From: Chitinophagales bacterium
GTDB taxonomy: Bacteria; Bacteroidota; Bacteroidia; Chitinophagales; Chitinophagaceae
NCBI GenBank assembly: GCA_021323755.1
Contig: JAJPKJ010000042.1
Location: forward strand, 1-64,000
Direction of reading: 5' to 3'
Length of the DNA: 64,000 bases
Below the pieces are notes generated by a model, which was not told the DNA's origin, searched no databases, and saw only the letters and a list, made by a program, of their open reading frames with translations. This document shows, in pieces, positions 29,185 to 60,420 of the stretch (positions are counted from its first letter, which is position 1; each line of letters starts with the position of its first letter). A program made the position numbers and the translations under genes.

Positions 29185-29547
29185 ATCATTCCATTGATAT
29201 AAAATCTGCTTCGTCCTGATCACGATTTCCTTTCTTTGTGATAGCATATTGCTGGTCAATCACTCAACATGCTAAAGGAAATTTAACGGTTCAGTATATC
29301 GTATTTTAATCAAAAAATGGGAGAAGATGGAACAGGTATGCATTTCCGTTACATATTTTGCATCCAAAGAGAAAAATCGGACTGCTATCATTTTTGGGTA
29401 TTATTTCACAGCCTCAAAAGTTTCAGCCATAAAGGGAAAATTAGCGCACGCATTCTCTAATTTTTTTACCTCCATGTTTTTGTAGTAAATCAATTCTGTT
29501 TCCTATTGTGTGCTAATGCAGTGGGTGATTTTGGTTACAGGTCGAAG
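29185..29547. other. Intergenic region with a short member of the tRNA-tail/KLENA repeat family
   Basis: Two convergent genes flank this stretch. At 29424-29480, minus strand, there is a short reading MEVKKLENACANFPFMAETF followed by EAVK and a stop. It matches the KLENAI...NFP.LATNF reading of the repeats at 31.8, 36.5, 38.9 and 52.0 kb but lacks the SLINEF segment. The rest holds nothing recognisable. Confidence 0.4.
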
Positions 29548-30903
29548 TTAGTCTTTGTTTACTTCTACAATTTTAATCGCTTGTTCAAGTTCACGGTCTC
29601 TTTTCTCGATCAGATCTTCAATCGATGGGTAAAGCGGGAAATCTGGCTCGATGCTCACTAAATTCTTTGCCAGTGGTTTTACCGCCATCGTGTATTTGAC
29701 AAGGGGGAGACGAATATCGATCCCGGTTGCGGGAAGGATAACGTGTATCTCATCGCCGGATACATTGCCATAATATCCGCCGCCAACAACATCGCCGATG
29801 AAAAGCCCGCGCCGGTTTGTCTTGACGATTGAAGAAAATTCAGCGCTTGCAGAAAAACTTCTTCCGTCAGCCAACACGAATAATTTTCCAGAATAATTGT
29901 TCTTCTGTGGTTGCTGAATCTGAAGGTTTGGATGATCCTTTTCTGAGAATTTCTCCTTGATCGTTTCCTGCGAAAGATAATAGCGAAAAGGTCTATCTGT
30001 AAGGTATGAATAGAGTAGTTCGCCATTGTTGTCATTCCCTCCCTGGTTGCGGCGGATATCGATAATTAATTTTTTTACATTTTTTTGCCGGATGTCCGTG
30101 AAAGCGGAATCTAAAAAGGAATGAAAATTCTCCTTAGTCTGTTGCAGGAACCCGTCAAAAAAACTCCTTATCGTCAGCACCGCGGTACTTCCTTTTTCGT
30201 AATGGAGTTCAAGATATTTTCCTGGTCTATTATAAGGAGATGCGCATAAGATCTCTTTAAATGGAGCACTATTGAGAGTAGAAGTCCCCACTTTTTCCTT
30301 AATCGTCCGATAAGTGATCGTATACTTGTCGCTCACTCCAAATAAAAGCTGATAATAGTAGTTGAAACCTTCTGGCAATTCAGTGTCCTTATGCGATGTG
30401 ATAAAACCATCTGATTGAACATAATCGTAGGTTCTTCGAATTATTTTCTGCATCGTCACTCCATTGATCGATAATAATTCAGTTCCGCGCAAAGCAGTAT
30501 CCTGATTGTTACAATAAATATAAGCGCGGTTGTGAATGAACACCACAAGAGCTGGAAAGAATTTTCCCTTATCAGTCCATTCAGCAAATACAGTTTTAGG
30601 CGGGTTGGCATTGGTATGTCCATCGCCGATCGCAGCGATGATATAAGCCACTCGCGTGAAAAATTCTAGATCTGTCTCACTATCCCGTATCGACGCATAA
30701 CAACTGTCAAAAATTTGATCCATGATTACTTTGCTGCGATAGCGATATAGTCCCGGATGATTCTTCTCCAAGGTGTCTCGCAGGATCAAAAAATCTTTTT
30801 GCAATAATGGCTTTGGAATGTGTTGGTCGTAATGGGGTATTTGGGCCTTTGCAGAAAAAAAATAACCCAGTATCAATATGGACATCAAGAAATTGCTTTT
30901 CAT
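29548..30903 (-). CDS. Secreted S41-family (C-terminal-processing-like) peptidase, 451 aa
   Basis: A signal peptide (ending SAKAQ, ~21 residues) precedes an N-terminal helical region (FLILRDTLEKNHPGLYRYRS, IAAIGDGHTNANPP). A PDZ-like segment follows (ALRGTELLSINGVTMQKI), then the S41 core with LIIDIRRNQGGNDNNGELLY (~285) and VLADGRSFSASAEFSSIVK (~345), which carries the likely catalytic Ser. A typical GGGYYGN loop follows. Family members cleave C-terminal regions of periplasmic or secreted proteins; the target is unknown. Length and frame are normal and the gene stands alone. Confidence 0.85.
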   Translation of the reverse strand: MKSNFLMSILILGYFFSAKAQIPHYDQHIPKPLLQKDFLILRDTLEKNHPGLYRYRSKVIMDQIFDSCYASIRDSETDLEFFTRVAYIIAAIGDGHTNANPPKTVFAEWTDKGKFFPALVVFIHNRAYIYCNNQDTALRGTELLSINGVTMQKIIRRTYDYVQSDGFITSHKDTELPEGFNYYYQLLFGVSDKYTITYRTIKEKVGTSTLNSAPFKEILCASPYNRPGKYLELHYEKGSTAVLTIRSFFDGFLQQTKENFHSFLDSAFTDIRQKNVKKLIIDIRRNQGGNDNNGELLYSYLTDRPFRYYLSQETIKEKFSEKDHPNLQIQQPQKNNYSGKLFVLADGRSFSASAEFSSIVKTNRRGLFIGDVVGGGYYGNVSGDEIHVILPATGIDIRLPLVKYTMAVKPLAKNLVSIEPDFPLYPSIEDLIEKRDRELEQAIKIVEVNKD

Positions 30904-31265
30904 TTAAACGTTTTATAGTTGGACCGACGTTGTAGGCAATTGTTGCACGTGATGTGCATTATAATTGGAGTTTTTCCACAGTTTTTATGAGGGCGTGATT
31001 TATATACCCAGAATAAAATGGGCATTATAGAAAAATTTTTTGTAGGCGGTCAGATGATAAGAGGTTCAATAGCGCATAGCCGAAAAAGGCAAATATCCAA
31101 TGAAATCAAATCCCTTTTTCGATAAGGGTCGGTGATTTTAAAATTCATATACCTAAACAGAGTCTGTTACAACGGGGCGCACTTTTTTGAAATGAATCAA
31201 CCAAAGAATTTTACAAAAGCAGGAATTACGCAAAATCTTTTTAATCACTTCGATTAGATTCGAGA
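30904..31265. other. Intergenic region, nothing recognised
   Basis: About 360 bp between two minus-strand genes. No gene-like frame is apparent. CACTTTTTTGAAATGAAT near 31180-31197 resembles the outer part of the repeat at 52.0 kb (CACTTTTTTGAAGTG), which may be a further eroded trace. Confidence 0.35.
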
Positions 31266-31751
31266 CTATTGTTCGATAATTTCTCCTGAAACAGTACCAT
31301 CTGGATTAAAAAACCGCATCCCGTTAGAATTTGATCCTGTTATCACACCCATTGGAATATTGCTAAATGTTGCAGTAATCTTGCCATTGGTAATTGTTAC
31401 ATTCACCGTGCCTCCTCCGGTTGATTCACATTGCAATTGTCCATTGGAATAAAATTCAACGTCACATGACGGTGTAGCATTATTAAATGGCGGATAATCA
31501 AGTACGGCATATGAATTAGAATCTGGCTTGGTGCTAAAATTGATCATTAACCATATTTGCGGACTATATGGATCGTCAACACTCTGAAGCGTTAGATCTG
31601 CGTAGGTGGTGGAATTGCCAATGAAATGAGAATTAGAAAGACTCCAGGTCCAATTTGATTTTGGGAGGGTTAGGGAGGATTTGGATTTATTACATCCATT
31701 CATGAATACCAATAGAAACAAAATCGAAGCGAGATGGATAAAGTATTTCAT
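31266..31751 (-). CDS. Lipoprotein of unknown function, 161 aa
   Basis: The start at 31751 gives a lipoprotein signal with acceptor Cys 20 (LLVFMNGC), so it is preferred over a frame extension to 31820 whose extra codons derive from a repeat. The mature protein is Ser/Thr/Asn-rich and strand-rich (WTWSLSNSHFIGNSTTYADL, QIWLMINFSTKP, GGTVNVTITNGKITATFSNI), resembling small Bacteroidota envelope lipoproteins. No known domain is recognised. Repeat copy D lies immediately upstream and may hold or replace its original promoter. Confidence 0.6.
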   Translation of the reverse strand: MKYFIHLASILFLLVFMNGCNKSKSSLTLPKSNWTWSLSNSHFIGNSTTYADLTLQSVDDPYSPQIWLMINFSTKPDSNSYAVLDYPPFNNATPSCDVEFYSNGQLQCESTGGGTVNVTITNGKITATFSNIPMGVITGSNSNGMRFFNPDGTVSGEIIEQ

Positions 31752-31775
31752 GGTTCGCGAAGTTAAATGTTTCAA

Positions 31776-31840
31776 AATTTGTGTAGCAAGAAAGGCAAAT
31801 TTAGCGAACTCATCAATCAATGATCTGATTAAGCATTTAT
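31776..31840 (-). repeat. Diverged tRNA-tail/KLENA repeat, copy D
   Basis: On the minus strand this reads IDEFAKFAFLATQIL, matching the INEFxNFPxLATNF reading of the copies at 36.5 and 52.0 kb. CTTTCTTGCTAC matches the 3' tail (CTCTCTCGCTAC) of the tRNA-like copies. The hairpin seen beside other copies is missing. It lies between the lipoprotein gene and a permease relic. Confidence 0.45.
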
Positions 31841-31877
31841 TCTAAATACAATCGCGTCAATCATAAAACCCCGTAAA

Positions 31878-32018
31878 CTTTTCGCCGGGTTTGTTATGCT
31901 GCTTTAAATATCTGAAAACTCAACGTTATCATGGCAATCATTAGTGCAACAACAGCCGAAATTATGAAATACCAATAATTCAGTGTTACTTTCTCTGCAA
32001 AACCTTCCAGCCATCTGA
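31878..32018 (-). pseudogene. C-terminal relic of an FtsX-type permease
   Basis: The minus strand reads RWLEGFAEKVTLNYWYFI, then ISAVVALMIAMITLSFQIFK, which is the last membrane helix of these permeases. After a 1-2 base indel it continues ITNPAKSLRG, matching the family ending NPVKSLRTE. Nothing of the other ~740 residues remains. It lies directly downstream of the intact permease at 32021-34417, so two permease genes stood in tandem before one was lost. Confidence 0.7.
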
Positions 32019-32020
32019 AA

Positions 32021-34417
32021 TTATTCTGTTCTCAAACTCTTCACTGGGTTTGCCATGGCTGCTTTGATGGATTGAAAACTGATAGCTATTAAAGCGATCA
32101 CTACCAAAAGAAGAGCTGTTAAAGCAAACATCCATCCACTGATGTGTATCCGATAGGCAAAATCCCTCAGCCATTTATTCATTGCCCAGTAAGCCAGGGG
32201 CGTTGCAATTACACACGCGATAATTACCAATTTCAAATAGTCTTTACTAATCAATTGTACAATGCTGCCGACACTTGCACCCAATACTTTCCTTATGCCT
32301 ATTTCTTTTACTTTAACCTGTGCCGTATAAGTTGTCAAACCAAACAGGCCAAGGCATGAAATAAAAATGGCGATGGCTGCGAAAGTTGTAAACAAAGTAC
32401 CAGTCCGCTGTTGCGATTGATAGTGCGATTCAAATGTCTTATCAAGGAAATCGTAAGAGAAAGGTGTGTTGTTTGCATATTTTTTATACTGCAACTCTAC
32501 TGCTTTGATGGCTGCCTGAGCACCCGCACCTGTTGTTCGTACATATAAAGTGTTCTTTAATCCAGACGTTCTAATTAATAAAGGACCCACGGGATCTAGC
32601 AGCGATTTAAAATTAAAATCCTTTATTACACCAACTATTTCTCCATTGGCAATGCCATAACCAATCTTTGTACCGACGTAAGGAGGTTTCAAACCCATCG
32701 CTTTTACGGCAGTTTCATTTAAAATATATTTATTTTCATCAGAAGGCGTTTCGCTAAAATTTGTTCCCGCAATGAGTTGGTACTTCATCGTAGGTATAAA
32801 CTTTTTATCTGCAGATACACGCCAAAGCATAAACGGAACATTTCCCTCTTTACCATCCCAAACAATATCTCCTGATACCTCGGTTACGTTTGTAATATCT
32901 TTTGCGCTGCTAAACGAAACATTTAGTAGGTTTTTTTGCAATAGCAATTCATTTTCTATAGCGGAAGCATTTTTCGTTGCTTCTGCCGGAAATGAAACCG
33001 TAAAAACATAGTTCTTATCATACCCCAAATCTTTATTCCTTATATAAGCCATTTGTTTTCCCATTATGATTGTAACAACCAGCAGTATGAATGAGATGGC
33101 AAATTGAAGAACCACTAACGATTTTCTGAATGAAGCCACTCTAATACCCAAAAAGCTTTTTTCACGTACTGCGCCTAAAGGATTAAAGGATGATAATAAA
33201 ATTGCCGGATAAATGCATGAAATAAGTATTGTTCCAAACAATACGCAAACCAATATTTCTAACATGGAAAAATTGGCCAGGGAAAGAATTAATTGTTCGC
33301 CTGTGATTCTATCATACAATGGCTTCAACAAATTGATTAAAACAAATGCGATGAAAATAGCAAACCCGAAAGTCAGGACTGTCTCAGTAATGAATTGCAA
33401 AAATAATTGTCCTCTTTTCGCACCAATGATTTTTTTTATGCTTACCTCTTTAATCCTTGTGAGCGCCCGAGCCGTAGACAGGTTTACGTAGTTAATGCTT
33501 GCAATGACCAATATTAATATCGCAACGAGAGTCATTATTTGTACCATTTGTAATGCAGCATGATCTCCATCAATTCCTGTAAGATGAAGGTCTCCTAAAT
33601 TCTGCAATTGGAAAGTTGTTGAAGTTTGACCATTTCCCATAGCCTTAAATAACTGTGTAAGTTTTGTTTCAATACTTGAAGTATTGGCATTTGGATTTAT
33701 CAGAAGGAACGTTCTGAAGCTATAGTCGTTTATGTCTTCATCGATTGTTTTCCAGCCGTGATTGCCACCGTGGTTAGCGAATTGTTGAGCATAATAATCT
33801 AGCGGAAAAATAGCATCGTATTGCAGAGAAGAATTATGAGGGAAGTTCTGCAAAACGGCAGTCACCGTAAAATTGTTATTATCAAACCGTACAGTTTTGC
33901 CAATAGCATCGTCTGTGTCAAATAATTTTTTGGCCGTTGACTGTGTGAGTGCGACAGAGTGCGTATTCGGCAAAAATGCATTTTGACCACCATGCAACAA
34001 GGCGTACTTGAAGAAGCTTAAAAAATTACTGTCTGCATAAACAATATTGTTGTTGTCAAATACTTTTGTTTGATCACTATTAGATAACATTTTATCGGAC
34101 AAGGTTGGATTTTCATTGTCACTCGCTAATCTTAAAACAGAAATTACACCAGGAATTTTTTTCGCCACTACAGATAATGGCGCAGGTATCCCTTGCCAGG
34201 CAAGTGATTTCCGTTGTAAAAAAGTAATGTGTGAATTTACCTGGTAGATATTTTTATACTCCCGGTTAAATCTATTGTAGCTAAATTCATACTGAACCCA
34301 AAGCAGCAGCATAATCCCTGTTGCAAGCCCCACAGCGAGTCCGCTTATGTTTACAATACTGTAAAATTTACTGGCTTTCAAATTCCGCCATGCAGTTTTA
34401 AAATAGTATTTAAGCAT
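32021..34417 (-). CDS. FtsX/MacB-type ABC transporter permease, 798 aa
   Basis: It starts MLKYYFKTAWRNLKASKFYS with a helix at ~20-42 (INISGLAVGLATGIMLLL), then a periplasmic MacB-like domain and an FtsX helix trio from ~285. A helix near 430 (SLVVLQFAISFILLVVTII) leads into a second periplasmic domain. The last FtsX trio has the conserved KEIGIRKVLGASVGSIVQLI and ends AAMANPVKSLRTE. It was probably an inner-membrane partner of an ABC ATPase encoded elsewhere. The promoter-like repeat begins just upstream (34441), with its TGCACG core 93 bp from the start, as at two other permeases. The frame is intact. Confidence 0.9.
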   Translation of the reverse strand: MLKYYFKTAWRNLKASKFYSIVNISGLAVGLATGIMLLLWVQYEFSYNRFNREYKNIYQVNSHITFLQRKSLAWQGIPAPLSVVAKKIPGVISVLRLASDNENPTLSDKMLSNSDQTKVFDNNNIVYADSNFLSFFKYALLHGGQNAFLPNTHSVALTQSTAKKLFDTDDAIGKTVRFDNNNFTVTAVLQNFPHNSSLQYDAIFPLDYYAQQFANHGGNHGWKTIDEDINDYSFRTFLLINPNANTSSIETKLTQLFKAMGNGQTSTTFQLQNLGDLHLTGIDGDHAALQMVQIMTLVAILILVIASINYVNLSTARALTRIKEVSIKKIIGAKRGQLFLQFITETVLTFGFAIFIAFVLINLLKPLYDRITGEQLILSLANFSMLEILVCVLFGTILISCIYPAILLSSFNPLGAVREKSFLGIRVASFRKSLVVLQFAISFILLVVTIIMGKQMAYIRNKDLGYDKNYVFTVSFPAEATKNASAIENELLLQKNLLNVSFSSAKDITNVTEVSGDIVWDGKEGNVPFMLWRVSADKKFIPTMKYQLIAGTNFSETPSDENKYILNETAVKAMGLKPPYVGTKIGYGIANGEIVGVIKDFNFKSLLDPVGPLLIRTSGLKNTLYVRTTGAGAQAAIKAVELQYKKYANNTPFSYDFLDKTFESHYQSQQRTGTLFTTFAAIAIFISCLGLFGLTTYTAQVKVKEIGIRKVLGASVGSIVQLISKDYLKLVIIACVIATPLAYWAMNKWLRDFAYRIHISGWMFALTALLLVVIALIAISFQSIKAAMANPVKSLRTE

Positions 34418-34440
34418 AAAAAGAGATTATTTGCTTTCTC

Positions 34441-34555
34441 AGCAACAAAAAGACCAAGATCGTTTTTAATTGTGTCTTAATCAATTAGTAGAATATCAGT
34501 GAAGTATTATGCACGATTTTGATACAGTTCTTGTGCGGTTATGATCGAATATTGT
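34441..34555 (-). promoter_or_regulatory. Permease upstream box, copy 1
   Basis: The region contains TGCACGATTTTGATACAG (plus strand, 34510-34527) and an AAAGACCAAGATCGTTTTTAAT segment nearer the gene. Both are shared with copies at 47.3, 54.9 and 60.2 kb. Here the near segment is the most diverged. The TGCACG core is 93 bp from the permease ATG. Position and conservation suggest a promoter or operator; no regulator is identified. Confidence 0.5.
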
Positions 34556-34562
34556 CTCGTCC

Positions 34563-34860
34563 TGGAAAAACTATACAGGTGGTATCGTCCTGAAAATAAC
34601 TGTCAGTTCTATATATGGGTGCTTCATCAACAAAAAGCCATTATTGTTTTTTGGTTGCGGATTCTTGAATGAAAGCAATCTGAAAGGTGTTTAAAGTTTT
34701 CTGATGTCTCCTTTAGGATTGATCGCCAGATTGCAGAAGTTATCGGAATGGAAGACATGTGACTGATTTTGGTTTATCAGTATTAATTTAATAGGGTGAG
34801 AAATCAATTTGGGAAGTTCTAACGGAAAGCAATTAATATTAAAATCGATAAGAACGCAAG
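34563..34860. other. Intergenic stretch with partial homology to the 47.4-47.5 kb region
   Basis: No gene is seen. Bases 34777-34817 (ATCAGTATTAATTTAATAGG and following) resemble 47436-47485 beyond permease box copy 2. The two upstream regions thus share a longer ancestor, interrupted here by about 210 bp. Confidence 0.4.
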
Positions 34861-35313
34861 CTATTTTGGAGGTGCGAAACGATTTTTCCTATAAGAATTT
34901 TTAATTGCAATTTTGCCATCCCTAAAAGTAAATAAATCACATCCAGTCACTTCAACTTTACTTCCATCTGATTTTGTTCCAGTGAAAAGCCATTCGGAAA
35001 AACCTCTATCGCCTAAAACAAAGTGGTAAGCATTTCCCCAATGGGCGTCATGAAAAATGGCAAAAACATTTTCAAAGGCTTTCTTTACTTCATCCTGTCC
35101 AATAAATTTCTCGCCGTCGGCTTTATCACCTGCAGATGCCTCGAAAATACAATCCTTTGTCATGAAGGACATTATTGCAGAGAGGTCATGTGCGTTGAAG
35201 GCATTAACAAACGAATCAAGGAACTTAACTGTTACTGGCGGATTTGTAGATTGGGCTGAAGCTAGAATCGGAAGCAATACAGCGATTAAGAATCTTGAAG
35301 TTAATTTGCGCAT
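34861..35313 (-). CDS. Secreted SnoaL/NTF2-like protein, 150 aa
   Basis: A signal peptide (residues 1-21, ending ASAQ) is followed by a single SnoaL-like alpha+beta domain. The N-terminal helix reads VKFLDSFVNAFNAHDLSAIM, then comes SFMTKDCIFEASAG, a helix with GQDEVKKAFENVFAIF, and the closing strands FSEWLFTGTKSDGSKVEVTG and CDLFTFRDGKIAIKNSYRK. Proteins of this fold include isomerases, hydratases and binding proteins, so no activity can be assigned. It is a single gene with no obvious operon partner. Confidence 0.8.
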   Translation of the reverse strand: MRKLTSRFLIAVLLPILASAQSTNPPVTVKFLDSFVNAFNAHDLSAIMSFMTKDCIFEASAGDKADGEKFIGQDEVKKAFENVFAIFHDAHWGNAYHFVLGDRGFSEWLFTGTKSDGSKVEVTGCDLFTFRDGKIAIKNSYRKNRFAPPK

Positions 35314-35576
35314 TTTGTATCTGATTTAAAAATTATTGAAATGAAGGGGATAGATTTTATCCTTATGAGTGAAATTGGACTATTTGGTCTTCTGTCATCA
35401 TCATAGATTGTCGCTATACAATAGCAGGCAACGGTCAGGGCTTTCTGCTGTGCTGATATTCGGTGATTCGTCAGTCCGGACTGCTGATGAGTAAAGTTAA
35501 TGAAGATGATAACAAATTCTGTTGCTCGGCTTTAGTTGTTCTGTAAGCTCCGCCAAGGGAGGAGGGCAAAGCCAAT

Positions 35577-36389
35577 TTATTTGACATGCCCTTGATGATA
35601 GACCTGGTTATTTGGGAAATCAATTTTTTTTAAATATTCTAAAATATCTTGCGCAGCTTTTTGACTTGCAGAATCAGTACCAACGTTAATTTTACTAAGG
35701 AGGGAAAATATATCTGGAGATCTGCCTTTAACTCCTCCCTCGATAGGGCTAGGTATCGGGAACTTTTTATCAACTATAAGATATCTCGCAACCAAAATAT
35801 TTTCAAATCCGTTGAAAAAAAGTTCATACCAGACCATATAGATATTTTCGTTGCGAAAGTATATGTTTGCTCCATTATCTATTAAAATCTTTGTACAAAG
35901 CAGGTTTGAAGTAGCCTCAGATAATGGAACAGTCATGCTCAGCGTATCATTATCTCTTCTATTAAATGAAGTATCATTAACGTTTGCGCCATATTTGATA
36001 AGTTCTTTTAAAATGCCGGCTGTATTTTTTTTTAAGGGTATGTATTTTGTTGCCTCCAATATTGGACTGAGATTAAATGAATCTCTTTTATTCACATCCG
36101 CTTTTTCTTTTAGTAAAGCTTTCACTGAATTGAGTTTGTCATTACCGACCGCTAACATCAGCAATGTTCTTCCAAATCTTGGTTCCTGAAAATTTAGATC
36201 ATATTTCCCACTCTCAGCAAGTCGTTTTATGGTCTCTACCTCTTCATTTTTTACTGCTTCCGCTAGTTTTTCATTTGGAGTATTATTGAAAAGACTAAAT
36301 TGATAGGCCTCACCAAAGCCCGATCTTTGGGCGCAACTGGATATATGAATAATGAATGCAAGTAAGAATATAATTTTGAAAGGCTTCAT
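35577..36389 (-). CDS. Ankyrin-repeat lipoprotein, 270 aa
   Basis: MKPFKIIFLLAFIIHISSC is a lipoprotein signal with acceptor Cys 19. Ankyrin-type repeats follow: NEEVETIKRLAESGKYDLNF, RTLLMLAVGNDKLNSVKALL, LSPILEATKYIPLKKNTAG and ILIDNGANIYFRN, spanning ~45-190. The C-terminal ~80 residues are less regular. Such proteins mediate protein-protein contacts in the envelope. The partner is unknown. Upstream lies repeat copy E with its hairpin. Confidence 0.75.
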   Translation of the reverse strand: MKPFKIIFLLAFIIHISSCAQRSGFGEAYQFSLFNNTPNEKLAEAVKNEEVETIKRLAESGKYDLNFQEPRFGRTLLMLAVGNDKLNSVKALLKEKADVNKRDSFNLSPILEATKYIPLKKNTAGILKELIKYGANVNDTSFNRRDNDTLSMTVPLSEATSNLLCTKILIDNGANIYFRNENIYMVWYELFFNGFENILVARYLIVDKKFPIPSPIEGGVKGRSPDIFSLLSKINVGTDSASQKAAQDILEYLKKIDFPNNQVYHQGHVK

Positions 36390-36418: not shown

Positions 36419-36545
36419 AAAAGCCACTCAAACGATTAATCCGAGCGGCTTTTGAAATTTGTAGCCAGAAGGGGGAAATTAGCGAACCCATTAATCAATG
36501 AATTTATTGCATTTTCTAATTTTTGAACATTACTTTTTTGCAATT
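36419..36545 (-). repeat. Hairpin plus tRNA-tail/KLENA repeat, copy E
   Basis: Read on the minus strand, the element gives KLQKSNVQKLENAINSLING, then FANFPLLATNFKSRSD and a stop, over 36545-36430. The DNA of the LATN part (CCCCTTCTGGCTAC) is a diverged form of the tRNA 3' tail seen at 44.7, 55.1 and 60.4 kb. Directly after it, AAAAGCCGCTC...GAGTGGCTTTT (36453-36419) forms a strong terminator-like hairpin. It lies downstream of the GIN-domain gene, which it could terminate. Confidence 0.5.
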
Positions 36546-36653: not shown

Positions 36654-37388
36654 CTAATCAATCTTACTGATTTGCATTTCTCCAAAGTGGAACCACTTGT
36701 TTATTGTCGGATCTCCTTCGTAAGCTACAGAAGCTTCTCCAAAAGAAACAATCCTTATTGCATCAGAAACATGCAGTCGGAAACTCGCTTTACCGAACGC
36801 TGTTATTTTAGTGGTATGGTTATCTATAGCAACAGTGTTGATCCTGCTTTCCCCATAAGAAGTATATTTCTGATGACCAATTGAGCCCGTTTTGATATTT
36901 AGCTCTCCGTCACCATAGACAGAAGCCTTGAGCTTCCCGAGGTTTACTTCATTTAAAAAAACATGCGGGTTGCCATACATTTTTAACCTGAACTTCTTGC
37001 CGGCTAAGAGGCTTTGGCAGACTTGGGTCTCATCGCCCCGTATCGAAAGTGCTTGAAGGGCTTTATAATTTATGGTAGCCGCCACCACCGTGCCATGATA
37101 AATAGCACGCCTCCCGGTATACCCATCGTCTTCATTTTTAGTGATCTCTTTGGCACCTTCTAAATAAACGCGCAGGGTTTTACCATTCACTTCAATATGT
37201 ATTTTATCTATAGGAGCGCTGCACTTTTCAATAACTACATTTTCTTCATTTCCTTCAACAAATGTGACTTGAATGTGCGGGCTAACTATTATTTTTTCGA
37301 AATGGCGTACCGATATTTTTGTTTGCGCGAACGCTGCGGTACACATAAAAATTATAGCAATCGTAATACTGTGTTTTGATTTTAGCAT
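36654..37388 (-). CDS. Secreted GIN-domain (DUF2807) protein, 244 aa
   Basis: A signal peptide ending AAFAQ (~21 residues) precedes a right-handed beta-helix-like GIN domain. It begins FEKIIVSPHIQVTFVEGNEE and has regular strand repeats such as LRVYLEGAKE, LKASVYGDGELNIKTGS and HTTKITAFGKASFRLH. This domain (putative autotransporter adhesin head) is common in Bacteroidota envelope proteins. Its ligand is unknown. The gene follows the serine hydrolase at 37406-38809 by 17 bp and is probably co-transcribed with it. Confidence 0.8.
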   Translation of the reverse strand: MLKSKHSITIAIIFMCTAAFAQTKISVRHFEKIIVSPHIQVTFVEGNEENVVIEKCSAPIDKIHIEVNGKTLRVYLEGAKEITKNEDDGYTGRRAIYHGTVVAATINYKALQALSIRGDETQVCQSLLAGKKFRLKMYGNPHVFLNEVNLGKLKASVYGDGELNIKTGSIGHQKYTSYGESRINTVAIDNHTTKITAFGKASFRLHVSDAIRIVSFGEASVAYEGDPTINKWFHFGEMQISKID

Positions 37389-52241: not shown

Positions 52242-53750
52242 TTACTGCGATTCCAGCTTTTTTATTTGATCAGCTGCATATTTGTTGTCTGCATTAAGTT
52301 CCAATGATTTTTTAAAATTCTTTATGGCTTCAGCTTTTTGACCGTCCTTCTGAAGAGCGGTTGCATAAGCAGAGTATGCGTCCGAAGATGATGGATTTTC
52401 CTCAACATTCAATTCATAGATTGCAATGGATTCATTTATGCGTTTTTTTGAAGCCAGGAAGTCTCCAAGATTATTCAAGTCGTTTTCTATGGTATTAAAA
52501 TTATAAATAGGTTGTTCGGTTTTTTTGAGTTTCCGATAGTATGCAATTGCTGTTTCGATATTACTCTTTTGTAATGAATCGTAAAGAGCGTAAGCAGGCA
52601 ATGGCTTTGGCATAGATACTGTCTTATCATAGATTACCGCGATAATGTCGTTGATGATAGCATCGAGCAAGCCGCCCCTGAGACCAGCCCTTGAATTGTC
52701 CAGCAAAATAATAAAATTCTCATCTTCTAAAGTCCTACCTAACATGCTTGAAAAACCGTTGATACCGCCTGCATGAGCCATAGTTGTGATGTCTTTACCT
52801 GTTCCGATGAAATTTTTTTGGTGGAGAACTATAAGTCCGTAAGCATAATTATCCAAAACTGGAGTAAACATAATTTTCTTATTTTCTTCGGAAAGTAATT
52901 TGTCTGTTCGTAAGGCCTTGTCCCATAGTAGCAGATCCTCCACAGTGGAATACATCGCCCCACAACCAAAAGTGGAAGAAGCCATGTTGATATAGGGTGC
53001 ATTCGCATACCCATCGAAATTAAAATCATAGCCAGCTGCTCGATTAAGAATAATTTTGTCGGGATAATCAATCCCCGTATTTTTCATGCCGACAACATCC
53101 AGGATATTCTTCTGGAGCACTTCTTCAAAAGAATTGTTGGTAATTGCTTCAATGATCAGTCCTAGTAGAAAATAATTCGTATTTGAGTAATCTTTTTTTG
53201 TGCCCGGAACAAATTCCAAGGTATCACTACAGTATTTTAATGCAAACTCTTTATGATCAACATTTCCCCCACTTAATTCTTTTTCCCAGTTGGGTTTGTC
53301 GGTGTAATTGGGAAGTCCGGAGGTGTGGGAGAGCATCATATGAATGGTCACACTTTTGCCAACATCTTTTCTGTACCAAGGTAAATAGTCGCTAATGGTT
53401 GAGTGGAGGTTTATTTTCCCCTGTTGTTTTAGCTGCATAATTAGCATGGCAGTAAATTGTTTGCTGATAGAACCAATACGGAATTTGGTGGTGGGGGTAT
53501 TGGACATCTTCCACTCCATGTTTGCAAACCCATAGCCTTTTTCGAAGACAATTTTTCCTTTTTGTGCAACTAATACTTCGCCGTTGAACAGGTTAAATCT
53601 GTGATAGGTTGAGACAAGTGAATCGATGGTTTGAGCCTTGGACTGGGCGTTGATTTTGGTGAAGACAAATAACAGGAATAGAAACGAGAAAAAATTAACC
53701 CTGCTCCTGAGTTTTATTACCTCCCTCGTGTTGCTTTTTGATATAATCAT
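52242..53750 (-). CDS. Secreted serine hydrolase (class C beta-lactamase-like) with TPR tail, 502 aa
   Basis: A signal peptide follows a charged leader (FFSFLFLLFVFTKINAQ). The catalytic S-x-x-K is SISK (~94-97), the second motif YSN lies in KDYSNTNYFLLGLI (~193), and the third is MAHAGGINGFSSMLG (H-x-G). HTSGLPNYTDKP is the usual family loop. The C-terminal ~80 residues are TPR helices (AIKNFKKSLELNADNKYAAD). Substrate unknown; relatives include D-aminopeptidases and esterases. The far N-terminus may be shorter: VNFFSF, about 17 codons downstream, would also give a signal peptide. It lies 97 bp downstream of the AraC gene and could belong to its regulon. Confidence 0.85.
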   Translation of the reverse strand: MIISKSNTREVIKLRSRVNFFSFLFLLFVFTKINAQSKAQTIDSLVSTYHRFNLFNGEVLVAQKGKIVFEKGYGFANMEWKMSNTPTTKFRIGSISKQFTAMLIMQLKQQGKINLHSTISDYLPWYRKDVGKSVTIHMMLSHTSGLPNYTDKPNWEKELSGGNVDHKEFALKYCSDTLEFVPGTKKDYSNTNYFLLGLIIEAITNNSFEEVLQKNILDVVGMKNTGIDYPDKIILNRAAGYDFNFDGYANAPYINMASSTFGCGAMYSTVEDLLLWDKALRTDKLLSEENKKIMFTPVLDNYAYGLIVLHQKNFIGTGKDITTMAHAGGINGFSSMLGRTLEDENFIILLDNSRAGLRGGLLDAIINDIIAVIYDKTVSMPKPLPAYALYDSLQKSNIETAIAYYRKLKKTEQPIYNFNTIENDLNNLGDFLASKKRINESIAIYELNVEENPSSSDAYSAYATALQKDGQKAEAIKNFKKSLELNADNKYAADQIKKLESQ

Positions 53751-53847: not shown

Positions 53848-54645
53848 TTATAGATTCTTATAAGCAAATGGCAGGAAACCGGTGAATTCTTTAAAAGTTC
53901 TAATAAAATGGCTTTGATCAGAAAAGCCGCATTCGTAAGCAATACAAGTCAGGGATTGTTCCCTTCTTTTAATTAAAGCGAGCGCCTTTTCAATTTTGAT
54001 CTTCCTGACATATTCTCCCAAAGAACAGCAAAAGTATTTGGAAAAATATCTGGAGATTGTCACAGGGTGCACATTTGCAACTTTTGCCAATTCTTGTAGA
54101 CTGATTTTGTCATTCCAATTATCGTGCAAATAATCTTTAACAGCCGTCATCCAAATAGGCCAGCGAGATGGATCAGCATATTTTATTTTTGGCATGTGAT
54201 TGACAAGTTCCAACAGCATCATGTTGATAGAAATGGATGAAAAGTGATCGGGTTCATGGAGTTCTTTAAGTATTTTCAACATTAAAAACTTGGAATCAAG
54301 TTTTTTGTCTAGAGAGGTCAATACATAACTTTCATCCAATTTATATTTCGTAAAAAAAGTGGGTTCAATTTCAATATTAATGTGTCTGGAGTATTTGGCC
54401 ACGTTCTTTACCCGGTGATATTCCCCGGCATAATTGAAAACAATTTCCCCTGGAAATAATTCACGACTGTTTTTCTTTTTCAATTCGCAACCGCCATGTA
54501 ACACAAAGCTAATATTTGTGTTTTGATGGCAATGCCGCTGATTATCAAAATCCCTTTTACGATAAGAGGTTACACTCACAATGGTGCCATTATCATAGAC
54601 TCTTTGGATCACCTCACCCGTATATTGACCAGTATTAAGTATCAT
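53848..54645 (-). CDS. AraC-family transcriptional regulator, 265 aa
   Basis: The N-terminal cupin-like ligand-binding half reads RHCHQNTNISFVLHGGCELK and FPGEIVFNYAGEYHRVKNVA. The C-terminal double helix-turn-helix spans ~165-262: KISLQELAKVANVHPVTISR, YFSKYFCCSLGEYVRKIKIE and the second HTH with CIAYECGFSDQSHFIRTFKE followed by FTGFLP, the AraC/XylS signature. It may control the serine hydrolase directly downstream. It carries no receiver domain, so it is not the missing kinase partner. Confidence 0.92.
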   Translation of the reverse strand: MILNTGQYTGEVIQRVYDNGTIVSVTSYRKRDFDNQRHCHQNTNISFVLHGGCELKKKNSRELFPGEIVFNYAGEYHRVKNVAKYSRHINIEIEPTFFTKYKLDESYVLTSLDKKLDSKFLMLKILKELHEPDHFSSISINMMLLELVNHMPKIKYADPSRWPIWMTAVKDYLHDNWNDKISLQELAKVANVHPVTISRYFSKYFCCSLGEYVRKIKIEKALALIKRREQSLTCIAYECGFSDQSHFIRTFKEFTGFLPFAYKNL

Positions 54646-55040: not shown

Positions 55041-55063
55041 TTGTATAGAAACTAAAAAAACAA

Positions 55064-55149
55064 AAGCCGCTAAAGAAATATCTCTAACAGCTTATAAAAA
55101 TTGTAGCGAGAGAGGGAGTTGAACCCTCGACCTCCGGGTTATGAAATCC
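55064..55149 (-). repeat. tRNA-Met(CAU)-like 3' fragment plus hairpin, copy B
   Basis: On the minus strand 55149-55103 reads GGATTTCATAACCCGGAGGT and continues CGAGGGTTCAACTCCCTC to TCTCGCTAC. The anticodon loop TTCATAA, variable loop AGGTC, T arm GAGGG-TTCAACT-CCCTC and 3' acceptor strand are all present, and no CCA is encoded. The 5' half of a tRNA is missing. The hairpin AAGCTGTTAGAGA...TCTTTAGCGGCTT (55092-55064) follows. It lies 57 bp past the permease at 55206. This is the best-preserved copy. Confidence 0.75.
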
Positions 55150-55205
55150 AATTGTTTAATCTGAGCAAAATATATTTCGTTACCTGAATTGGTACTCAAA
55201 ATAAA

Positions 55206-57683
55206 TCATTCTGTTCTCAGACTCTTTACCGGATTTGCGATCGCTGCTTTGATAGATTGAAATATCGATGTAAACAATGCAGCGAGCAACATTCCAGTTC
55301 CGCTGAGCGCATATATCCACCAGCTTATTGTTGTTTTATCAGCAAAACCTTCCATCCATTTATTCATAGCTATCCATGCAACAGGGCTTATGATCACAAA
55401 TGCAAGTACAATCAGCCATGCCATTTCTTTAGACAATAAAACAATGATCTGCGTTACTGTTGCTCCTAAAACTTTGCGCACACCAATTTCTTTTGTGCGT
55501 TGATTGGTTGTATAAATAGCCAAACCAAGCAATCCCAAACAACTGATCAATATTGATAACCCTGTTGCCCAACTCAGCAACGCTGATGTTTGTTGTTCAT
55601 TCGCATAAAGCCGGGCGATGCTTTCGTCAAAGAACTGGTATTCGAAATCATCATTCGGATATATTTGCTTCCACGCTTTTTCCATAGATGTGATTGCCAT
55701 TTTCCATTCATCGCCATTTGCCGTTTGCGGTTTAAGCGCGATGTGAAAAGTTCCATTATAGTGCGTTCCATTATAATCATTGTCGGTGGCAGTAAGAATG
55801 GCTAGCGGCATAATGGATTCATGTATCGATTCCTGGTTGAAATCGGAAACAACACCTACTATCTGCATATCTCTGTCGCCATTATATTTGCTGATCACTT
55901 TTCCCACAGCATCATGCGGATCTTGAAAACCGATCTGTTTTGCAAGAGTATTGTTGATGAGAAAAGCTTTCGATGTATCGCCGGGTAATAGATTGCGTCC
56001 CGCCAATAATTTGATGTGATAAACCTTGATATAATTCTCATCGCCGTACTTAGTAACAAGGCTCTGAATATGAATTTCTTTTTTCCCGTCTTGATAACTG
56101 CCGTCGGTATTATTTGAATAGTCTGAAGTTGGCGCATCATATCCTATGCTCACTAATTCTACTTCAGGAATTGCATTGAGCTTGTTAAGAAATACTCTAT
56201 TGAGACTCGACTTGCGATTTTTTTCCGGTGAATTTACAATGAGGATGGCATCTTTTTTAAATCCCAGGTCTTTATGTTTGGCATAATAGATCTGTTTGCT
56301 CACAAGGAGAGTGGCCATAATGAAAAATTGAGCAATAGCAAATTGAAGCACCGTAAGCGATTTTCGAAGTACCACTTTGCGCGTTTTGCCGCTGCCTTCA
56401 TTGCCCATATTTTTAATTGCAGAAACCGGTTTGAAACCTGAAAGTATCATTGCAGGATAAAAGCCCGAAGCCAGGCTTACAACGATCACCAATGATACAA
56501 GGAAAAGAATAATGTTTGGTTGTAAAATTTGTTCGTTCTGCACACCCTGCGGTATGAAACCTGAAAAAAGCCGAAGCACAACAGGGGTAATGATTACAGA
56601 AATAATGACGGAAACAAGTGTGATCAAAAAAGTTTCACTCAAAAACTGAAATATTAATTGCTTGCGGTCGCTGCCAAGAGTTTTGCGTATGCCTATTTCT
56701 TTTGCTCTTTGCGCCGATTGTGCAGTAGTGAGATTGATGAAATTAATGCAGCCCAATAATAATAAGAATAACGCAATGGCGGAAAGTTCTATTAGCGTAG
56801 ATCTGTCTGCAACGCGTCCATTATTGAATGTTCCGTAGTCGGTGTTGAAATGAATATCTGTCAACGGCTGTAATGCGAACACTTCGGTTACTCCCGCTCT
56901 TGGCTGAAGATTCTTTTTCTCGATATCATTCAACTGCTGTTCTATTCCTGCTTTTTTTGTTTGCGGCAATAATTTTACAAATAGCTGGTACGACCAACTT
57001 ACGCCTCCCCAATTATGTAAACGCAGTTGCGTTTTTAACGACGGGTCTGAAAAGGCAGTAGGAAAAGAAATAAAATCATGGAAAACGAAGTCGGTGTTTT
57101 GTTTAATGCTTTGCACAATTCCGCTCACTGAAGTTTTTAAAGTATCGTACATTACTACACGACCAAGCATTTGCTCATAACTTAAACCGGGGAAATATTT
57201 TTCAGCCTGATCAGAAGTAAGCACTACCTGGTAAGGAGAATTCAAAGAAGAAGCCGCAGAACCTGCCAGCCATTTGTATTCAAAAAGTTTAAAATAATCG
57301 CTGTCTGCAATAACTATGTTCTCCTGGTTTTTAAATCGGGTAGATGTTTTACTTCCATTGGTCACAGTTATATTTGGTTTCGATAACCAAAAGATAGGAG
57401 CCGTTCCCTGCAAACCGGTTACCTGTTCTTTAGTTGCCCATGGCAGCGGTCCGCAAACACCTGGGGCATACCAAGGAGTTCCTGATGTTGTAAAATTTGT
57501 TACCACGCGATAGATACGGTCGCTGTCTTTATGAAATTTATCAAAATTGAGATCGTAATGAATAAGCAGGTAAATAACCAATGCGGCGCTAGTGCCAATA
57601 GATAAGCCAACAACATTTATCAACGTAAATAGCTTATGCCGCCGGAAATTTCTGAAGGCAGTTTTGAAATAACTCTTGAACAT
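55206..57683 (-). CDS. FtsX/MacB-type ABC transporter permease, 825 aa
   Basis: It starts MFKSYFKTAFRNFRRHKLFT with a helix at ~20-42 (INVVGLSIGTSAALVIYLLI), a periplasmic domain and an FtsX trio from ~300 (FLLLLGCINFINLTTAQSAQ follows the first helix). A helix near 450, a second periplasmic domain and the last trio with KEIGVRKVLGATVTQIIVLL follow. It ends AAIANPVKSLRTE. It resembles the permease at 44775 more than the one at 57788, judging from the helix-loop wording INLTTAQS/INLSTAQS. It follows the permease at 57788 by 104 bp without its own upstream box, so the two probably form an operon. Confidence 0.9.
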   Translation of the reverse strand: MFKSYFKTAFRNFRRHKLFTLINVVGLSIGTSAALVIYLLIHYDLNFDKFHKDSDRIYRVVTNFTTSGTPWYAPGVCGPLPWATKEQVTGLQGTAPIFWLSKPNITVTNGSKTSTRFKNQENIVIADSDYFKLFEYKWLAGSAASSLNSPYQVVLTSDQAEKYFPGLSYEQMLGRVVMYDTLKTSVSGIVQSIKQNTDFVFHDFISFPTAFSDPSLKTQLRLHNWGGVSWSYQLFVKLLPQTKKAGIEQQLNDIEKKNLQPRAGVTEVFALQPLTDIHFNTDYGTFNNGRVADRSTLIELSAIALFLLLLGCINFINLTTAQSAQRAKEIGIRKTLGSDRKQLIFQFLSETFLITLVSVIISVIITPVVLRLFSGFIPQGVQNEQILQPNIILFLVSLVIVVSLASGFYPAMILSGFKPVSAIKNMGNEGSGKTRKVVLRKSLTVLQFAIAQFFIMATLLVSKQIYYAKHKDLGFKKDAILIVNSPEKNRKSSLNRVFLNKLNAIPEVELVSIGYDAPTSDYSNNTDGSYQDGKKEIHIQSLVTKYGDENYIKVYHIKLLAGRNLLPGDTSKAFLINNTLAKQIGFQDPHDAVGKVISKYNGDRDMQIVGVVSDFNQESIHESIMPLAILTATDNDYNGTHYNGTFHIALKPQTANGDEWKMAITSMEKAWKQIYPNDDFEYQFFDESIARLYANEQQTSALLSWATGLSILISCLGLLGLAIYTTNQRTKEIGVRKVLGATVTQIIVLLSKEMAWLIVLAFVIISPVAWIAMNKWMEGFADKTTISWWIYALSGTGMLLAALFTSIFQSIKAAIANPVKSLRTE

Positions 57684-57787: not shown

Positions 57788-60184
57788 TTACTCTGTTCTC
57801 AAACTTTTCACCGGGTTTGCAATCGCAGCTTTGATAGATTGAAAACTGATCGTTATCAAAGCGATCAATATTACAAGTGCCCCGCCTGCAGTAAACAAAG
57901 CCCACCCTGGGGTAATGCGATAGGGATAATGTTCAAGCCATTTGTTTGCGGCGATCCACACCAGGGGCATGGATATGAATAATGAAATGATGATCAGTTT
58001 CAAAAAATCGGTTGAAAGCGTAACAACAATGCTGTTTACAGAAGCTCCCAGCACTTTGCGCACGCCAATTTCTTTTGTTCTTTTTTCTGCAGACAACACC
58101 GATAACCCAAACAACCCGATGCAGGAAATAAATATGGTGAGTATTGCGCTGAATAAAAGAATCTCTTTCCATTTTGCTTCCGCCTGATAGCTCATGGCAT
58201 TCTGTTGTTCCAAAAAATTGTAGGCAAACGCGTTTAATGGAAACAGTGTTTTAAATGTTTTTTCTATCTGCTTCAGGCTTGCAGTTTCGGTGCCAGGTTT
58301 TATTTTTATAAAGGCCATTCCATAGTCATGAGCCGGGTTCATCGTAAATATTTGTGGCGCAATTTTTTCAGTCAATGGCTTGTAATGATAATTTTTTACA
58401 ACACCAACAACTGTGTAGGTCTTATTATTCTCATAGCTGATTATTTGTTTTCCGACAGTCTGATCCCAACCGGCTTCTTGTACCAATGCCTCATTTACTA
58501 AAACCGAATTTGTTGAATCGGATGGAAATTGCGCGGAGAAATTTCTGCCTGCTGTTACAGGAATTTTAAATAATGGCAGATAAGACGGATCGATGGTTTC
58601 AATCACAACGTTCACATCTTTTTCGGGGCTTGCTTTTACTGTATTATTATTGAACCCGGAATTTCTCGGGGTGACGTCAACTATATCATGATCCTTCATT
58701 AATTCCATTTTAAATAAAGCAGCTTCGTCGCGCGTCATTTCCGGTTTTTGAACAGAGATCAAATTGCTGTCATCATAGCCAAGACTTTGTGATGTGAGAT
58801 AATTGAACTGCAAAAAAATGGTAAGTGTAGCGATGATCAAAAATGATGCTAATGCAAACTGAAATACCACCAACGACTTTTGCAAATAATTTTTACTGCT
58901 CGAACGCAAGCGACCATATAGCGTTTGAACAGGATTGTAATTTGATAGCACCACCGCCGGGTATAACCCCGCCAATGCCCCCGTGAAAATAAAAAGCGCT
59001 GCATAACCAATGATAAGGTTAACGTCAAACAAATAAGAAACTGAAAGTATTTTGTTTGATAACTGGTTGAACACGGGCAACACTGCTTTTACAATAACAA
59101 TTGCCAGGCTGAAAGCAATAATGCAAAGAATAAACGACTCGCTGAGAAATTGAATCATCAATTGTTTGCGCGTGCCCCCGATCACTTTGCGCACGCCAAT
59201 TTCTCTCGCGCGTTTTACAGAACGCGCAACGGTCAGGTTTATAAAATTGATGCACGCGATCAGTAAAATAAAAATTGCTATGGCAGAAAGAATATAAGAA
59301 TACACCGGGCTGCTTCTGTCTGAAAGTATTTCATCTGTATCGGACACCATTTTGCCAAGATGAATATCACTAAATGGTTCAAGCGTCCATGACATGCTGA
59401 TGTCTTTGATGCCGTATCTGGTTTGCATATCGGCAATTGCAGTGTTGGCATCCGATTTAAAGACCTTATCCATTTTTGTGTGGAGGGCATTAACATTTGC
59501 GTCAGGTGCAAGCACAACAAAAGTGCTGAGAAAATAATTAAACCAATTCTTGCTATCATTTTCTTCTCCAGCAGATACTTTCAGCGGTAGCAATATGTCG
59601 AATTTGATTGATGAATTTTGCGGGCAATCTTTTGCGACGCCGGTAATAACGTGAGGTGCAAATTTTCCCGTTTCGTTTATCAATAATGTTTTGCCAAAGG
59701 CGTTTGAATTTCCAAAATATTTTTTGGCGATCGTTTCAGTAATTACAATTGAATTAAGCTGTGTCAACGCAGATTTGGCATCACCTTTTAATAAAGGAAA
59801 ATCAAATACGGAAAAGAAATTTGCATCCACAAAACTCACGCCTTCCGATTGAATATTTGGTCCTGATTTTATTTCAGCTCCGCTCGGTTGAAAGCGAACG
59901 AAACTTTGTATCTCCGGTATGTTTGCTGCAAAACGCGGACCTTGAACATAGCCGGTATAACTACTGTAATGAGCGCTGCCTTCTTCACGAACATTTTCTC
60001 TATCTATCCGATATATCTGGTTTATTTTTTTATGAAACTTATCAAAGCTCACTTCATCTTTTATATACAACATGATGAGCATGGCACAAGCCAAACCAAG
60101 ACTTAACCCCGCAATGTTGATGAAGGAATAAATTTTGTTTCGTGCAAGATTTCTGAGTGCAGTTTTGAAATAATTTTTTATCAT
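57788..60184 (-). CDS. FtsX/MacB-type ABC transporter permease, 798 aa
   Basis: It starts MIKNYFKTALRNLARNKIYS with a helix at ~20-42 (INIAGLSLGLACAMLIMLYI), then a MacB-like domain and an FtsX trio from ~290 with INLTVARSVKRAREIGVRKV. A helix near 425 (SLVVFQFALASFLIIATLTI), a second periplasmic domain and the final trio with KEIGVRKVLGASVNSIVVTL follow. It ends AAIANPVKSLRTE. It is the first gene of a two-permease unit. Box copy 4 starts 26 bp upstream, with its TGCACG core 92 bp from the ATG. Two such permeases might form a heterodimer with one ATPase. Confidence 0.9.
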   Translation of the reverse strand: MIKNYFKTALRNLARNKIYSFINIAGLSLGLACAMLIMLYIKDEVSFDKFHKKINQIYRIDRENVREEGSAHYSSYTGYVQGPRFAANIPEIQSFVRFQPSGAEIKSGPNIQSEGVSFVDANFFSVFDFPLLKGDAKSALTQLNSIVITETIAKKYFGNSNAFGKTLLINETGKFAPHVITGVAKDCPQNSSIKFDILLPLKVSAGEENDSKNWFNYFLSTFVVLAPDANVNALHTKMDKVFKSDANTAIADMQTRYGIKDISMSWTLEPFSDIHLGKMVSDTDEILSDRSSPVYSYILSAIAIFILLIACINFINLTVARSVKRAREIGVRKVIGGTRKQLMIQFLSESFILCIIAFSLAIVIVKAVLPVFNQLSNKILSVSYLFDVNLIIGYAALFIFTGALAGLYPAVVLSNYNPVQTLYGRLRSSSKNYLQKSLVVFQFALASFLIIATLTIFLQFNYLTSQSLGYDDSNLISVQKPEMTRDEAALFKMELMKDHDIVDVTPRNSGFNNNTVKASPEKDVNVVIETIDPSYLPLFKIPVTAGRNFSAQFPSDSTNSVLVNEALVQEAGWDQTVGKQIISYENNKTYTVVGVVKNYHYKPLTEKIAPQIFTMNPAHDYGMAFIKIKPGTETASLKQIEKTFKTLFPLNAFAYNFLEQQNAMSYQAEAKWKEILLFSAILTIFISCIGLFGLSVLSAEKRTKEIGVRKVLGASVNSIVVTLSTDFLKLIIISLFISMPLVWIAANKWLEHYPYRITPGWALFTAGGALVILIALITISFQSIKAAIANPVKSLRTE

Positions 60185-60209
60185 GCCGGAGAGTTTAGCA
60201 TTTTACTTC

Positions 60210-60330
60210 AATAAAAAGACCAAAATCATTTTTGATTGTTGCATAATGAATTAGCCGAAAGGTGAGAAAATGAAATGCACGATTTTGATACAGAAGTTGT
60301 GCGGTAGCGAACGAAATATTTTTTAGGACT
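60210..60330 (-). promoter_or_regulatory. Permease upstream box, copy 4
   Basis: The box contains GACCAAAATCATTTTTGATT (60219-60238), identical to copy 3, and TGCACGATTTTGATACAG (60276-60293), 92 bp from the permease start at 60184. An AATCA-N4-TGATT inverted repeat sits in the near segment. The outer end (GAACGAAATATTTTTTAG) also matches copy 3 and runs into the hairpin of tRNA-like copy C. Confidence 0.55.
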
Positions 60331-60334
60331 AGGC

Positions 60335-60420
60335 AAGCTGCTAAAGAAAAATCTTTAACAGCTTTCAAAAGTTGTAGCGAGAGAGGGAGTTGAACCCTCG
60401 ACTTCCGGGTTATGAAATCC
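60335..60420 (-). repeat. tRNA-Met(CAU)-like 3' fragment plus hairpin, copy C
   Basis: On the minus strand 60420-60374 reads GGATTTCATAACCCGGAAGT and continues CGAGGGTTCAACTCCCTC to TCTCGCTAC, one base different from copy B. The hairpin AAGCTGTTAAAGA...TCTTTAGCAGCTT (60364-60335) is a near-perfect stem with an ATTTTT loop. The flank to the right (GAGTAAAATATAATTCGTTACCTGAATT) also matches the flank of copy B, so more than the tRNA piece was duplicated. Confidence 0.75.

Follow-up and report, generated by a model that had tools for sequence, protein, structure and literature searches.

In contig JAJPKJ010000042.1 of a Chitinophagales bacterium (assembly GCA_021323755.1) we found a row of eight related sites, all on the minus strand, that appear to derive from the 3' end of one tRNA-Met(CAU) gene and that separate small groups of genes. 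The stretch analysed, hereafter the window, comprises the first 64000 bases of this contig (C45, 64838 bases), in a genome of 4.08 Mb and 75 contigs. With a probability of about 0.83, the array grew as about eight small units, of two attachment types, inserted one after another at this tRNA 3' end by site-specific integration (tandem accretion). The reading is carried by an intact parent tRNA, its fragments, arms shared between the sites, a hairpin duplicated together with the tRNA tail, an integrase and an exact duplication of the same segment in a relative, and relics of the integrase side.

Each incoming element would have carried the 3' part of the tRNA together with the hairpin in its attachment site (attP) and would thus have rebuilt the tRNA on entry, while the old 3' end would have been pushed downstream with the older element behind it. 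Above each fragment one would then expect the right arm of the newer element, and below it the left (integrase) side of the older one. At the type 1 sites (A, B and C) the exchange would have occurred in the anticodon arm, at the type 2 sites (52.0, 38.95, 36.5, 31.8 and 29.4 kb) nearer the T arm. The units that remain, about 2.3-7.3 kb in length, would be non-autonomous, as integrases of this type would have disappeared since. We infer the order and number of these events, and the action of two different integrases, from the arrangement of the sites.

The fragments and their parent tRNA

Over its last 43-47 bases the intact tRNA-Met(CAU) is 94, 100 and 98% identical to sites A, B and C, respectively (E 5.6e-13, 5.8e-16 and 1.3e-14). 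Because ARAGORN finds no tRNA in the window and Rfam gives nothing at gathering score, all three are fragments, just as a preliminary description made from the letters of the window had proposed. The type 1 features and the site at the contig end are the following, all read on the minus strand.

60374..60420, minus: site C, type 1, last 46-47 bases of tRNA-Met(CAU) (98%, E 1.3e-14)
60335..60373, minus: tRNA-type hairpin after site C, 38/40 to the hairpin at the end of C45; a homologous hairpin follows the intact tRNA in the relative G025
60421..60472, minus: arm 1 above site C, non-tRNA, the putative right end of an inserted unit (44/52 to the B arm, 34/52 to the A arm)
55103..55149, minus: site B, type 1, 43/43 to the intact tRNA (E 5.8e-16)
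55057..55102, minus: hairpin after site B, 36/42 to the contig-end hairpin
55150..55201, minus: arm 1 above site B (against the tRNA 5' part, p 0.23)
44672..44718, minus: site A, type 1 (94%, E 5.6e-13)
44719..44770, minus: arm 1 above site A, 36/52 to the B arm (against the tRNA 5' part, p 0.28)
C45:64803-64838, outside the window: ninth site, a tRNA-tail copy at the contig end

In an alignment, tRNA positions 30 to 75 are common to A, B and C, as are an arm of 52 bases above them and the hairpin below. The fragments are identical among themselves at 43-46/47 positions and the arms at 34 to 44/52. Since arm 1 matches the 5' part of the tRNA no better than shuffled sequences do (A p 0.28, B p 0.23, C p 0.41), the tRNA-derived part ends in the anticodon arm. 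On the same alignments we rejected the idea that arm 1 is a decayed D arm, which a tRNA-like GCTCAG in the B arm had suggested.

The intact parental gene, which the preliminary description had proposed to look for, exists at C36:24081-24155, ends exactly at the end of contig C36 and is the only intact tRNA with this sequence. A genome-wide search for the 11 bases at the tRNA end, TCTCTCGCTAC, gave five occurrences in 4.08 Mb, namely the intact tRNA, A, B, C and the 38.95 kb site (the control pattern of reversed reading occurs once), and further searches added the contig-end site and, on contig C22, two type 2 sites plus a 30-base tRNA piece. The far end of C45, read on the minus strand, begins in the middle of the tRNA tail and continues with the same hairpin. 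Because the tRNA closes C36 and a copy of its tail closes C45, as happens when an assembler breaks in a repeat, the two contigs are very probably neighbours (C36 plus, then C45 minus), which would place the array directly downstream of its parent tRNA. The assembly break is thereby explained, both contig ends falling in the repeated tRNA tail.

The nearest relative and the relics of the integrase side

Our comparison set for the genus consists of 33 genomes, this one included. In the nearest relative, G025, the two genes upstream of tRNA-Met are orthologous to those on C36 (56 and 68% protein identity). Downstream of the tRNA and its hairpin lie genes for a tyrosine recombinase (Arm-DNA-bind_5 and Phage_integrase, in separate frames), for an HNH protein and for a kinase. 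This content differs from that of C45: apart from the kinase, no called open reading frame (ORF) matches C45 at E 1e-8. The kinase, 2.2 kb downstream of the tRNA, is 62% identical over 276 residues to the C45 kinase at 48304-49938, and the match reflects a common domain because three other kinase genes of C45 match about as well. The proposal that small units are stacked at tRNA-derived sites gains from both results, the intact parent tRNA and the different content behind its ortholog.

On a second contig of G025, tRNA positions 30-75 and the hairpin recur together as a sharp-ended copy, identical at 94/94 bases, showing that tRNA tail and hairpin move as one. The hairpin noted earlier after the fragments is thus the tRNA's own and travels with the 3' part. 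This displaced copy is preceded by a C-terminal permease remnant and followed by a stretch resembling an integrase leader, so that G025, too, may have more than one element in a row.

Stretches of the same kind follow two of the sites in the window.

51797..52024, minus: integrase-leader relic together with the tRNA tail and hairpin of the 52.0 kb site (61% to L053, the G025 stretch from tRNA tail to recombinase; blastn E 1.8e-8)
51795-51919: overlapping stretch, 72% over 125 bases (E 7.8e-17) against L054
30942..31156, minus: possible relic of an integrase leader and N-terminus, with one stop inside, after the 31.8 kb site

The last of these matches G025 in tblastn (E 3.5e-5, 41% over 54 aligned positions) and in blastn (62%, E 6.9e-6). 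Both relics come after their sites, as they should if every site marks where an older element has its left end. Beyond the 52.0 kb relic, at 51584-51754 on the minus strand, lies an open stretch of 57 codons with no Pfam match. Our Pfam scan, which covered 29 of the larger ORFs of the window, all above 22.8 kb, plus two short pieces, returned no recombinase match. A recombinase beside the tRNA, for which the preliminary description had proposed to look, is present in G025, where the gene is frame-broken; this genome has no match to Arm-DNA-bind_5 (PF17293). Because the genome has no integrase of the G025 type, the units would be either fossil or dependent on another integrase.

The second type of site

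The sites at 29.4, 31.8, 36.5, 38.95 and 52.0 kb have a non-tRNA arm of their own (arm 2) and only the last ~17 bases of the tRNA.

51996..52082, minus: type 2 site (model E 2.0e-22, a training-set member; tail 15/17)
38938..39022, minus: type 2 site, followed by a tRNA-type hairpin to about 38907 (tail 16/17; E 3.1e-7 to tail and hairpin of site A)
36448..36530, minus: type 2 site (profile and model, training set; tail 12/17, noise level)
31765..31850, minus: type 2 site (profile and model, training set; tail 13/17)
29405..29480, minus: type 2 site, the most decayed and the farthest from the tRNA (profile and model, training set; tail 11/17, noise level)

The five copies are mutually homologous in a profile that includes two copies from C22 (E 4e-13 to 2e-21, all in the training set), and the 38.95 kb copy is linked independently to the tail and hairpin of site A (E 3.1e-7). 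Stretches matching the 17-base tail at 13/17 or better occur at six places on the minus strand of C45, all of them reported sites, and nowhere on its plus strand. The tail scores of the 36.5 kb (12/17) and 29.4 kb (11/17) sites are at noise level, with 11 and 32 places at least as high on the minus strand and 4 and 18 on the plus strand, so these two sites depend on arm 2. Searched against the whole genome, the type 2 model, with which 150 of 5338 candidates were scored, returned seven full members (all of the training set); below them come a stretch on C50 with the arm alone (E 1.9e-6) and then a match at E 0.006. The preliminary description had treated the five copies as diverged relatives of A, B and C. 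Indeed they are homologous to one another and lie on the same strand, but they form a second attachment class with its own upstream arm rather than simply decayed copies of the type 1 sites. The literature on the Islander database distinguishes, in the passages cited here, an anticodon-centred class and a T-stem-region class of crossover sites (PMC4383910), to which our types 1 and 2 would correspond.

In order of distance from the tRNA, the match to the 17-base tail is 17 (C), 17 (B), 15 (52.0 kb), 17 (A), 16 (38.95 kb), 12 (36.5 kb), 13 (31.8 kb) and 11 (29.4 kb), giving a Spearman rho of -0.85 (p 0.007; random-permutation p 0.007; n=8). This gradient of tail decay fits a stacking in which the newest unit lies next to the tRNA.

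In some type 2 copies an apparent inverted repeat surrounds the arm, and we considered an attC-like structure; it was rejected, as the folding of the seven sites as single-stranded DNA gained nothing over shuffles (z -0.82 to +1.01). The same result bears on a first alternative, a cassette system in which tRNA-tail-bounded units are cut out and reinserted by an integrase acting in trans, as in an integron-like gene library. The units are small, their genes mostly point one way and the genome has no G025-type integrase (other recombinases were not surveyed), all of which would suit such a system, as would a 1.2 kb single-gene unit that lies on C22 between a tRNA piece and a type 2 site, with no tRNA in the two loci read there. 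However, shuffling of units is not observed, the type 2 sites do not fold as attC sites do, and the integrase-side relics point to ordinary elements that lost their integrase. We thus regard a cassette system as unlikely. An equally doubtful extension is a living library of integrase-less units, each with a tRNA-derived site and a hairpin of its own at the end, moved in trans by visiting tRNA-Met integrases and liftable to secondary places such as C22, with two integrase classes of different crossover point using one tRNA and interleaving their units.

The C22 locus (G000:C22:85467-88378, L117) lies away from tRNA-Met and contains two type 2 sites plus a 30-base tRNA-Met piece. A single alpha/beta-hydrolase gene stands between this piece and the first type 2 site, and the piece is nearer to site C (29/30) than to the tRNA itself (28/30).

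Cargo of the units and the question of duplication

The units between the sites measure ~2.3-7.3 kb and hold one to about six genes, mostly in one orientation.

62237..64000, minus: permease P1 of the MacB/FtsX type, the gene closest to the tRNA, extending past the window to 64636
61978..62138, minus: permease relic, first ~30 and last ~20 residues, apparently an internal deletion (tblastn)
60502..61956, minus: beta-lactamase-fold protein with TPR, cargo before site C (Pfam PF00144)
57788..60184, minus: permease P2, cargo
55206..57683, minus: permease P3, cargo, ending 56 bases before site B
53848..54645, minus: AraC-type regulator, cargo
52242..53750, minus: beta-lactamase-fold protein with TPR, cargo
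50158..50475, minus: C-terminal piece of a DUF3871 protein (positions 231-318 of 318; Pfam)
48301..49938, minus: histidine kinase, cargo
44775..47282, minus: permease P4, cargo, ending 56 bases before site A
39177..44348: unit from A to 38.95 kb, with a cupin and three alpha/beta hydrolases (minus) and AhpC/TSA and DsbA-like proteins (plus)
36654..38809, minus: unit from 38.95 to 36.5 kb, with a beta-lactamase-fold protein and a DUF2807 protein
31897..36389, minus: unit from 36.5 to 31.8 kb, with an ankyrin protein, a SnoaL protein, permease P5 (32021-34417) and a C-terminal permease relic (31897-32019)
29548..30903, minus: S41 peptidase, cargo of the last unit

None of the 29 ORFs scanned is a replication, packaging, conjugation or mobilisation gene. 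For the far boundary of the island, beyond 29.4 kb, the DNA flanking the G025 copy was searched for in this genome and gave no orthologous stretch, although at such divergence one could be missed. GC content is 0.35-0.39 across much of the array and 0.455 at 40-44 kb, and it marks no clear edge. At 27360-27604 the C-terminus of a histidine kinase survives as a relic, fragmented and interrupted by stops, next to an intact sensor kinase with Reg_prop repeats (23725-27354).

The permeases look like cargo from a family that is common in the lineage. MacB/FtsX-type permeases give 98 domain matches genome-wide, about 60 genes by hand count. Of the 14 other congeners, 3 (G018, G027 and G028; L058, L060 and L068) have a MacB-type permease on the strand of their tRNA-Met, 2-6 kb behind it; this is possibly a recurrent cargo at tRNA-Met across congeners, the frequency of such permeases having been counted in this genome alone. 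Long same-strand permease arrays occur elsewhere in the genome, with 22 permeases in a row at C73:191000-247400 and others on C27, C12, C22 and C40. At the thresholds used, none of the arrays outside the window contains a tRNA-Met piece.

These genes bear on a second alternative, in which one early integration was followed by tandem duplication of a permease-plus-fragment unit through homologous recombination, giving A, B and C. The order of permease, 56 bases and fragment is repeated at A and B, a stretch that precedes the permeases is found after the contig-end site, C and B at 83-84% identity, and the arrays without tRNA pieces demonstrate that permeases do form long tandem rows in this genome. 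Against this, the fifteen pairs formed by the five island permeases and one permease from outside share 31-40% protein identity, and their identity at four-fold silent sites is 14-40% overall and 24-40% within the island (P1-P5), compared with 43-46/47 for the fragments. Because the permeases are near saturation at silent sites and the sites are nearly identical, tandem duplication, which the preliminary description had thought able to explain A-C, is a poor fit and in our judgement quite unlikely. Moreover, the gene before site C is no permease, the type 2 sites adjoin unrelated genes, and the conserved stretch also stands at permeases on C40 and C27 without a fragment and hence belongs to the permeases. 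The fragments may have been kept alike through gene conversion by the tRNA. A 116-base repeat (D2), tried as an attachment arm, was rejected; permeases on C40 and C27 that lack a fragment have this repeat in front of them as well, and it is read as a permease promoter region.

A third alternative takes the fragments for small RNA genes or working terminators that multiplied by duplication rather than integration, and it is very unlikely: hairpins follow several sites and 7/8 sites sit 46-159 bases past the end of a same-strand gene or gene relic, but the common tRNA part begins at position 30, in the anticodon arm, in G025 and in A-C, as integrase targets do, full sites outside the window occur only on C22 at the thresholds used (with the arm-only stretch on C50), and type 2 shows no fold signal and Rfam no match in the window. 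The hairpins after the sites may nevertheless act as terminators, as predicted.

The array among related genomes and known systems

To place serial integration at tRNA-Met in the genus, 15 tRNA-Met loci were read on the downstream side, about 9-19 kb each for the 14 other than G025. Two congeners, G022 and G032, gave one short opposite-strand tRNA-Met match each. In two more genomes with the same tRNA tail (L108, L110) the tRNA is intact and its neighbours in the stretch read are unrelated. The G025-type recombinase adjoins a tRNA or tmRNA gene in 21/30 loci examined from a longer list of matches. Ten of the 21, picked for long contigs (G010:C18 was excluded, its tRNA being 3.6 kb from the contig start), were followed over 10-60 kb; four have one displaced 3' fragment (E 1.7e-19, 4.8e-12, 7.9e-5 and 7.9e-4) and none has two. 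In two of these four, L192 (G015, tRNA-Pro) and L175 (G026, tmRNA), the region just behind the target gene was displaced along with the fragment, as in the window. An array of eight is thus unusual among the loci examined in this genus.

Several points weigh against serial integration as the origin of the array. A same-strand fragment of the own tRNA lies downstream of tRNA-Met in 0/14 congeners other than G025, and 6/10 integrase-linked loci lack a displaced fragment in the stretch read, in which short ones may be missed. G025 is a distant congener and its two contigs are unjoined, while the junction of C36 and C45 rests on a 9-base overlap plus elimination. One genome of the species stands behind the reading, without a strain that has an empty or partly filled site. 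PF17293 has 0 matches in the genome (other recombinase families were not surveyed), the G025 recombinase has no match there at E 1e-15, and the relic at 31.1 kb is short, with no Pfam match on its 40-residue piece. Finally, distance from the tRNA and site type are partly confounded in the tail gradient, the 52.0 kb site being a type 2 site between the type 1 sites B and A, and a non-random permutation run over the first 5000 orderings only gave 0.018.

Tycheposons of Prochlorococcus leave arrays of tRNA remnants. They resemble our array in the tRNA at the border and in carrying cargo, according to a second-hand account in parts of PMC10872708. The array differs from them in having recombinase relics only, where a tycheposon has its own tyrosine recombinase, and no replication or packaging gene among the ORFs scanned. 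From the portions of the sources cited here, the closest anatomies are the ssrA islands of Dehalococcoides (PMC3146451) and the tRNA-Lys additive island of freshwater Methylophilaceae (PMC10872708). As described in those portions, the alignment for the former takes in 28 repeats from several strains, none of them farther than 100 kb from ssrA; the islands stand in tandem downstream of one RNA gene, each bounded by its 3'-end repeat, with a motif above each repeat that is not alignable with ssrA and an integration module beside attL (PMC3146451). Their target is a tmRNA, their recombinases are of the serine type and 16 islands keep the module (PMC3146451), whereas our array has a tRNA-Met target, tyrosine-type relics, two attachment types and no integrase of this type left. 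For the Methylophilaceae island, the cited part of the source describes variation between strains and species (PMC10872708), compared with one genome here.

Our array is also a row of elements bounded by attachment (att) sites and without integration genes of their own (eight sites in the window and one at the contig end), which is how the passages used from PMC5704250 describe accretion of integrative and conjugative elements (ICEs) and integrative and mobilizable elements (IMEs), and cis-mobilizable elements (CIMEs): units that keep their att sites, lack integration genes and are stacked by later arrivals. The difference is that no conjugation or mobilisation gene was found among the ORFs scanned here. 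Islander islands, as defined in the cited part of PMC4383910, have an intact tRNA at one end and a displaced 3' fragment downstream in the same orientation. Our array has the former in the tRNA-Met of C36, whose adjacency to C45 we infer, and, given that junction, the latter in A, B, C and the type 2 sites, all on the minus strand. With eight or more sites it would still fail the integrase filter, as it holds relics only and even the G025 copy is frame-broken. The same source counts 4 tandems of three or more among 3919 islands, an integrase being demanded for each member (PMC4383910). More broadly, tRNA fragments are widely left by integration, as stated in the part of PMC9897764 cited here. 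Among the matches listed in our search of the literature on Chitinophagaceae islands, tRNA and integrase, none concerned this array, and we make no wider claim.

Conclusion

In summary, the process to which we attribute the array is tandem accretion, which is already known, and the array is unusually long for this genus. A long series of integrations at a single tRNA of a Bacteroidetes lineage would be recorded in it, the two crossover classes being interleaved and decay increasing with distance from the tRNA. Island finders that require an integrase would overlook the array, since none of this type remains. Should strains show shuffling of the units, the array would be informative about the assembly of bacterial gene libraries by means other than integrons.

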